NCBI GenBank assembly: GCA_026014585.1
Contig: JAOZIA010000002.1
Span: 293,677-357,676, forward strand
DNA: 64,000 nt
Source: Candidatus Bathyarchaeota archaeon
Lineage (GTDB): Archaea; Thermoproteota; Bathyarchaeia; Bathyarchaeales; Bathycorpusculaceae
Reading direction: 5' to 3'
A program made the position numbers and the translations under genes. Below, one piece after another: positions 12,037 through 62,615 of the stretch (positions within the stretch are counted from its first letter, which is position 1; every line of letters starts with the position of its first letter). A model generated the notes under the pieces. The model was not told the DNA's origin. It did not search any database and saw only the letters and a program-made list of their open reading frames with translations.

Positions 12037-12354
12037 TTGAGCAGAAATGAAAATAAAGGAAAAGGAAAAATGACCGTTGCTGAAGCAGGCAGAAGAGGCG
12101 GAGAACGAACCGCAGAGACACACGGACGAGAATTTTATGAAGAAATTGGACGTAAAGGCGGCACAAAAGTAGCTGAAGAGCGTGGTTCTGAATTTTACAG
12201 CGAAATCGGCAGCAAAGGCGGTTCTGAACGTGCAAAACAGCACGAAGGCACTCCTGAAGCCAGAGGAAAAACTAGCTTAGAAGAAGCAGGTAAACGTGGA
12301 GGACAACGAGTCAGGAGTTTAATCCAAGCAGGAAAAAAACGCGAAGAAGAATAA
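12037..12354 (+). CDS. KGG-motif stress-type protein, long form
   Basis: 105 residues, very hydrophilic. It holds four KGG-type repeats (AGRRGGERTAE, IGRKGGTKVAE, IGSKGGSERAK, AGKRGGQRVRS), as in bacterial general-stress proteins such as GsiB and the con-10-like family. These are probably disordered protective proteins; the exact role is unknown. Start is TTG at 12037, preceded by GGGGGTG. First gene of a small cluster with a second KGG gene and a DUF2795 gene. Confidence 0.85.
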   Translation: MSRNENKGKGKMTVAEAGRRGGERTAETHGREFYEEIGRKGGTKVAEERGSEFYSEIGSKGGSERAKQHEGTPEARGKTSLEEAGKRGGQRVRSLIQAGKKREEE

Positions 12355-12465
12355 CTCTTTTTCAAAACGTTTTAGCTTTAAGCAAGACTACTTTTAAAGA
12401 ATCAGTGATTTTCGTTTATTTTCCAATGAATTTCTTAAATTTTTGGTTGGAGGTGAAAAACAGAA

Positions 12466-12636
12466 ATGGCATCTGACAGAAAATAGGGGAAGATGACCGT
12501 CGAAGAGGCAGGCAGGATGGGAGGATTAAAGACTGCCCGAACCCATGGAGAAGAGTTTTATAGTGAAATTGGAAGCAAAGGCGGACAACGTGTTCGTAAG
12601 CTTATTCAGAAAGGAAAAGAACTTGAAAATGAATAG
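12466..12636 (+). CDS. KGG-motif protein, short form, with in-frame TAG at codon 7
   Basis: A strong ribosome-binding site GGAGGTG (12449-12455) precedes ATG 12466. The frame reads MASDRK, TAG (12484-12486), then GKMTVEEAGRMGG and IGSKGGQRVRKLI to TAG at 12636. The part after the first TAG matches the N-terminus of the longer KGG protein (GKGKMTVAEAG). If translation cannot pass the TAG, it could start at ATG 12493, which has only AGGGGA two bases upstream, giving 47 residues. The feature is given with the long frame; the TAG may be readthrough, a mutation or a sequence error. Confidence 0.65.
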
Positions 12637-12682
12637 CCAAAATACGTTTTTGAACTTTTTCCATATTTGGAGGTGAAAGGTG

Positions 12683-12934
12683 ATGGGTGAAACCACAAGT
12701 CTTAGGGGACGCAAAGAGTACACGGATAAAAGCGGCAATTCGGGTCGTGTTAGCCCAGCTATAATTGAGAAGTATCTTGCAGGCATACATTATCCTGCCA
12801 CTAAAAGCGGTCTGGTAAGCAGCGCTAAAACTAATAATGCTCCAGATAACGTGATGAAAATGATAGATAAGTTGCCTGATAAAAGGTATAGTTCGCCTAT
12901 TGATATAACAAAAGAGATAGGGAAAATTGAATAA
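12683..12934 (+). CDS. DUF2795 domain protein
   Basis: 83 residues from ATG 12683, chosen because GGAGGTG sits at 12669-12675. The core from about residue 30 (KYLAGIHYPATKSGLVSSA, then DKLPDKRYSSPIDITKEIG) is the DUF2795 fold, a small helical domain often next to stress or KGG proteins. The N-terminal 25 residues are charged and Gly/Ser-rich, probably disordered. Third gene of the cluster, 46 bp after the short KGG gene. Function unknown. Confidence 0.8.
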   Translation: MGETTSLRGRKEYTDKSGNSGRVSPAIIEKYLAGIHYPATKSGLVSSAKTNNAPDNVMKMIDKLPDKRYSSPIDITKEIGKIE

Positions 12935-61196: not shown

Positions 61197-62615
61197 TTAT
61201 GGTTGCCATTTCTCAACAAGATACTTAGGTATCTCGCTTGAGTCACGTGGACCAACCATGGCTTTCCAGCCGGATAATTCTTCGATTTCACCGCTGATTC
61301 TGCTTGCTTTGCCTGGGATGATGATTTTGCGATGCTTGACTTTGCCTTCGATACCGCTGGATTTTATTGCGTCTGCAACTTTGTCTGCTGTTAGTTTGCG
61401 TCCTGCGACACCGCTGTCGATTGCGCTGCCTTCTGCATCGACTACGAGTAGGTAAGCGTTGGTTTTGCTGCTTTCAATGTCTGATGCTACAGTGTAATAG
61501 GTTAGGGCAAAGTTTGATGTGAAGAATACTGGACTGTTTTCATCGGGTGTTCCGAACACTTTGAGACCTGGTGCAACTGCAACTGGTTTGCGTGGGTCAG
61601 TGTAAATGTTTTGTCTTAGGAATACTTCTGGTAGTTGTGCCCATCCATCGGTTGTGTGAAGTATAACAATGTCTGCAAAACGGACGATAAGCATACCGGC
61701 TACGTAGGCTTCACGCCATTTGACTAAGTCATCAGCCATTTCACCCTTGTTTGCCCAAGCTGTTAAGGGTAAACCAATCAATGGAAGACCAGCTAATTCG
61801 TTACCTTGTTTTGTTGCGCTTCTGCGAAGCATTGTAAAGTTGTTTAATGTATCAGCTAAGCCATCATTAAAGAATGTTCCAGGGTCCAAAACGAGGTCTT
61901 GAACACCATAGGTTTGCAACGTTTTAGCTAAGGTCATAAGATTGTTTAGGTCGTTAGGTGCAGAAGCAACAAGTGGACAGTTGTACATTAAGGCTAATTC
62001 TGCCATGTCTTTCCAGTTTTCCATTGTTGCAGCGTACAGTAATGGTCTTGCTTTCGGTATTGCCATAACACCTGCTTCAAGAACAGAAGGGTTCAAAGCA
62101 CAGAGAATTAAGGGCAATTTGGTTGTTTCTGAAACTTTTTTGACACAAGCCTTGAATTTCTCAGCGTCACCGGAAGTTGAACGAACAGCAATCATGTCAA
62201 GTTTCAAAGCGTTTCCGATGTATTCGTAGCTGAAACTTTCTGTACTTTTTATGCGGCTGTCAACTTCTGCGTCAGGCATTTCGTCTGTTACATCAACTGC
62301 GATTGCGGTTGGGTTAAAGTATGTGAATTCGTGTCGGTACATGACAAGTTTGCCACCGATTTTACGGGCATTGTCACCAGCACCGATTACTACTTCTTTA
62401 ACTGGAGGTTTGAGCATATCTTGTAGTTTTTTGTAGTTCTTTGCGTGTTCTGGTTTCTACAAGGGTTTGCATTGTTCAATGCTTGCTTCACGTGCAACAA
62501 CTTTGGTGGCAAAAGCCATACAGTTTTCTTGACCGCATTCTTTACAGTTAGTTTTTGGAAGCAACTTGTAAATGTCTATTGGGCTTAATTCTTTCTTTGT
62601 AGCTTTTTCACTCAT
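61197..62615 (-). CDS. cdhE: CdhE, acetyl-CoA decarbonylase/synthase gamma subunit, with in-frame TAG at codon 53
   Basis: 472 residues if the TAG at 62457-62459 is read as an amino acid. Large subunit of the corrinoid Fe-S protein that carries methyl groups to the ACS site. ATG 62615 follows GGAGG. Residues 1-52 hold the 4Fe-4S motif NCKECGQENC with a fourth Cys in EQCKPL. The TAG comes directly after CKPL, and the same frame goes on with KPEHAKNYKKLQDMLKPPVK and a complete TIM barrel. An ATG at 62417 could start a 406-residue barrel-only protein but has no ribosome-binding site. All residues from 62615 to 61197 are in one frame. Confidence 0.9.

Follow-up and report, generated by a model that had tools for sequence, protein, structure and literature searches.

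The window, i.e., the whole stretch of 64,000 nucleotides analyzed here (G000:C2:293677-357676), belongs to a genome of 2.31 Mb in 25 contigs that is 95.6% complete. It is closely related to Candidatus Bathycorpusculum and to further metagenome-assembled genomes of Bathyarchaeota; according to PMC10684969, such genomes of the Bathycorpusculum genus come from termites, peat soils, sediments and digesters. The subject of this study is a short gene for a KGG-motif protein at 12466-12636, the last gene of a tandem KGG cluster, which carries a TAG codon close to its start. A second gene of the window, cdhE, serves as a comparison case. The relevant features are as follows.

12037..12354, + strand: sister KGG gene, 105 aa, intact (open reading frame and profile match)
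12449..12455, + strand: Shine-Dalgarno-like site GGAGGTG of the KGG gene (sequence; equivalent sites precede the orthologues)
12466..12486, + strand: upstream start and six-codon leader MASDRK closing in TAG (sequence and orthologue comparison)
12484..12486, + strand: premature TAG (AAA or AAG in 14 of 16 orthologues, AGA in 2 of 16)
12493..12636, + strand: intact downstream KGG frame, 47 aa, candidate reinitiation product with its own terminator TAG (open reading frame and profile match)
12680..12934, + strand: DUF2795 gene (PF11387), the next gene on the same strand (profile match)
61197..62615, - strand: cdhE (FeS domain PF04060 and CdhD domain PF03599), interrupted by TAG 62459-62457 (sequence, profiles, relatives)

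Direct reading gives the order GGAGGTG (12449-12455), ten bases, ATG (12466-12468), GCA TCT GAC AGA AAA, TAG (12484-12486), GGG AAG and ATG 12493. The premature stop is followed by the residues GK, by the methionine of ATG 12493 and by MTVEEAGRMGGLKTARTHGEEFYSEIGSKGGQRVRKLIQKGKELENE; a second TAG (12634-12636) is the terminator of the gene. The segment GKMTVEEAG, the conserved body of the KGG-motif protein, lies 3' of the premature stop and in the same frame as ATG 12466, so the in-frame TAG reported in the initial annotation between this start and GKMTVEEAG is real. In a profile search the 47-residue frame matched PF10685 (KGG) with 33.5 bits against a gathering cut-off of 20.4, which makes it a member of the family, and the 105-residue sister gene is likewise a KGG gene. 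The distance from the premature stop to ATG 12493 is 6 nt, short enough for termination-reinitiation. The purine run AGGGG (12485-12489), described in the initial annotation as poorly spaced, indeed ends three bases before ATG 12493 and is too close to it for a good Shine-Dalgarno site. Upstream, GGAGG precedes ATG 12466 by 17 nt, compared with about 9-14 nt in the orthologues (estimated by eye).

We searched for the read-through KGG product in 61 genomes and obtained matches in 21 of them, all of the same genus. The orthologue set comprises the 16 genomes whose best match was taken as the orthologous short KGG gene. The source genome itself (G000) was excluded, and G001, G003, G023 and G025, where the KGG gene that matched best is longer or more distant, were dropped. 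In all 16 orthologues the frame starts with ATG, TTG or GTG, preceded by a GGAGGTG-like site, and stays open as far as GKMTV; the read-through product aligns to them starting at residue 1, 2 or 3. Both the interruption of a normal N-terminus and the frame relation, as originally proposed, are thereby confirmed. None of the 16 has a stop in its N-terminal part; the TAA codons flagged in G004 and G024 lie at the far C-terminus. The position of the TAG is occupied by AAA or AAG in 14 orthologues and by AGA in two, and a single substitution turns AAG into TAG. Conservation of the TAG in this gene was rejected, as the codon is present there in 0 of 16 orthologues.

A start at ATG 12493 conserved in relatives, named in the initial annotation as the refuting result, was looked for among 90 distinct KGG N-termini (the window and loci L004-L032 and L110) and not found: in 88 of them a start codon lies at most 14 codons before the conserved methionine, with no stop between. 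ATG 12493 was accordingly discarded as the ancestral start. The residues preceding GKM differ in length and sequence among KGG genes. The two exceptions are the KGG gene of the window and a decayed copy in G023 (L021, G023:C81, reverse complement near 1836), whose body is preceded by two TAA codons and disrupted by a frameshift. Decay of this copy was independent and involved TAA instead of TAG, so the type of stop is not conserved.

The body of the window gene has 47 codons and no further lesion. Over 45 codons compared with the 16 orthologues, differences at the first, second and third codon positions number 145:106:394; among the orthologues themselves they number 660:477:2593. We quote codon-position counts alone because synonymous sites were saturated in 15 of 16 Nei-Gojobori dN/dS comparisons. 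The differences fall mostly on third positions, close to the pattern among the orthologues, and therefore the frame was for most of its history subject to selection at the protein level, the counts being mute on present-day selection. The third-position share of the window gene (394/645) is somewhat below that of the orthologues (2593/3730), which would also fit recent decay.

Gene content across the genus bears on the importance of the cluster. No KGG match was obtained in eleven of 32 genus members, the source genome included in the count. By similarity of cdhE (77-84%) the closest seven genomes are G001, G031, G027, G010, G021, G026 and G030; KGG genes are absent from six of them and kept only in G001. 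The source genome keeps two KGG genes, compared with five or more in many relatives. The cluster is thus, judging by presence and absence, dispensable in this clade. A plasmid search found nothing. The tandem KGG cluster occurs genus-wide (L004-L032, L110), with paralogues of distinct lengths that number up to five or more; near a DUF2795 gene there are two KGG genes in the source genome and three in the cluster read from G001.

The initial annotation had paired this stop with a TAG in cdhE, and the second case is real as well. The cdhE TAG (62459-62457, - strand) is codon 53 and lies between the FeS and CdhD domains. This position reads CAG or CAA in the seven relatives nearest to the source genome and for the most part encodes leucine elsewhere; a stop is found there in none of the other 27 genus loci (28 in all) and in none of 69 loci from the wider set of genome contigs. 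The cdhE stop is, on these comparisons, private to the source genome. The two TAGs have separate origins, from a lysine codon (AAG-like) in the KGG gene and from CAG in cdhE, and the idea of a TAG-specific anomaly within 64 kb is not supported. In a tblastn screen of the window most reported stops fell in shadow ORFs opposite real genes. Judged by eye and among comparable parts, the KGG gene and cdhE seem to be the only real window genes with an in-frame stop. Two further interruptions were found in the source genome: a GFO/IDH/MocA oxidoreductase (L132:12238-13203, - strand, G000:C2:429914-430879) has TGA at residue 227, which is TGG in 5/5 relatives read, and a secreted-type protein (L140:19059-19964, - strand, G000:C21:79059-79964) has TAA at residue 95, open in 5/5 relatives read. 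Besides the cdhE TAG there are thus TGA and TAA interruptions, and therefore premature stops of all three kinds occur in this genome.

We then considered the recoding of UAG that two in-frame TAGs had seemed to imply. Profile searches of the source genome detected neither pyrrolysyl-tRNA synthetase (best PylS_Cterm hit 23.6 bits, cut-off 178) nor PylD (24 bits, cut-off 150). Loose sub-threshold hits of this kind were also obtained in control genomes without a pyrrolysine system (13 of 14 for PylS_Cterm and 10 of 14 for PylD, one over the cut-off in each case). PylS_Nterm had no hit in any of 41 genomes, while the positive control, Methanosarcina acetivorans, did give one. An amber-anticodon pattern had 39 hits in the whole genome compared with 42 for the reversed control pattern. 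Folding of eight of the 39 pattern-hit stretches with ARAGORN yielded four tRNAs (Arg, Pro, Pro, Gly), none with a CUA anticodon, and no CUA tRNA was found by ARAGORN in the window plus 400 kb more of the source genome. TAG is also a common terminator: it ends 94 of 436 called genes, about a fifth, in the approximately 464 kb scanned (400 kb fetched plus the window), and 12 of 61 called genes of the window, the KGG gene being too short for that count. The same 464 kb were scanned for stops with coding sequence to either side. This coding-potential scan registers a stop only after 15 or more open codons and so misses early ones like that of the KGG gene. At the 0.3 threshold the 21 strongest coding-to-coding stops are seven TAA, seven TAG and seven TGA, many of which appear to separate adjacent genes that share a frame. 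The share of TAG (7/21 versus 94/436 terminators) is a slight excess and a point against TAG being an ordinary stop, in numbers too small to carry much weight. Pyrrolysine recoding was rejected on the profile scores under the cut-offs, the absence of PylS_Nterm, the lack of an amber tRNA in these limited scans and the use of TAG as a common terminator.

We consider the most probable explanation, with a probability of about 0.62, to be an ordinary premature stop in the last gene of a dispensable KGG cluster, with TAG read as a stop and reinitiation likely downstream. This starts from four observations: the gene has the stop, relatives lack it, the body is intact, and no recoding apparatus was detected. 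On the lineage of the source genome a single base change would have created the TAG, most likely out of AAG (Lys). A ribosome starting at ATG 12466 would then make six residues and terminate at 12484-12486, and some ribosomes would probably restart at ATG 12493, 6 nt past the stop. The product would be a 47-residue protein that keeps the KGG body and loses only a short, variable, Lys/Arg-rich N-terminal tail. In Haloferax volcanii, according to the text of PMC10666635, a gap of 13-14 nt leaves substantial coupling (40-60%), and a gap of 22-23 nt abolishes it. A restart across 6 nt is plausible in view of these distances, and any protein made from this gene is most likely the 47-residue form. 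Loss would be tolerated because the KGG cluster is dispensable in the clade. The ancestral codon, the reinitiation and the tolerance are what we infer here.

A serious rival, though an unlikely one in our estimate, is an error of sequencing, assembly or binning, where the consensus base is wrong or represents a minor allele and the codon is intact in the living organism. From one genome of the species a real allele and a consensus error look the same. The neighbouring genus records are metagenome-assembled and the source genome probably is too, and about 464 kb contain two further single-codon stops. In addition, the cdhE stop affects a core gene where a true null would be costly, and a stop in a gene that is intact in 27/27 other genus loci and 69/69 wider loci is easier to explain as an error than as a real null; this raises the weight of such an error genome-wide. 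However, each of the four stops alters a single codon of a frame that is otherwise open, with no frameshift, and KGG genes have been lost or broken in relatives as well. A few broken genes per 436 called would be expected of any real genome.

It is also possible, if doubtful, that the gene is a complete pseudogene, in which translation terminates at the TAG without reinitiation and no protein is made. The independent decay in G023, the lack of KGG genes in all but one of the seven closest relatives and the poor Shine-Dalgarno context of ATG 12493 are consistent with this. On the other hand, the body is free of further lesions and differs from the orthologues mainly at third positions, and the 6-nt gap is within the range of archaeal reinitiation as measured in PMC10666635. 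That an amber-suppressing tRNA inserts pyrrolysine or some other amino acid at TAG, in the KGG gene and cdhE alike, is very improbable and mostly refuted already: the two intact downstream frames and the small excess of TAG would fit it, but the synthetase and PylD searches, the limited tRNA scans, the 12 window genes ending in TAG, the absence of TAG from both sites in relatives and the TGA and TAA interruptions argue against it. Still less probable is an unrecognised amber-suppressing tRNA, or leaky UAG termination, that would yield full-length KGG and CdhE proteins with TAG a normal stop elsewhere.

The stop in the KGG gene resembles known cases. Nonsense mutations near the 5' end of E. coli lacI are followed by translational restart at an internal start. 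As in those restarts, the KGG gene has an early amber codon, an in-frame ATG close by and an intact remainder of the protein; unlike the repressor, the KGG protein is short and of low complexity, and it is known here from sequence alone. Termination-reinitiation between adjacent archaeal genes, as described in PMC10666635 and PMC6728339, likewise has a stop and the next start within a few nucleotides. The KGG gene differs in that both frames were once one gene and that the distance is +6 nt in place of the common overlaps of -4 or -1. With pyrrolysine recoding in Sifarchaeia (PMC9723677) it shares the in-frame UAG; in contrast to that system, no PylS, PylD or amber tRNA was detected, the KGG protein is not a methylamine methyltransferase, and the stop is not conserved.

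The premature stop in the KGG gene thus looks like ordinary mutation, or else an assembly error, and the genetic code appears unchanged. It carries a caution: two close in-frame TAGs in an assembly of the metagenome type count as evidence of recoding only once relatives, tRNAs and the other stop codons have been checked. As it stands, the TAG matters little, since it is a single private stop and the gene family is dispensable.
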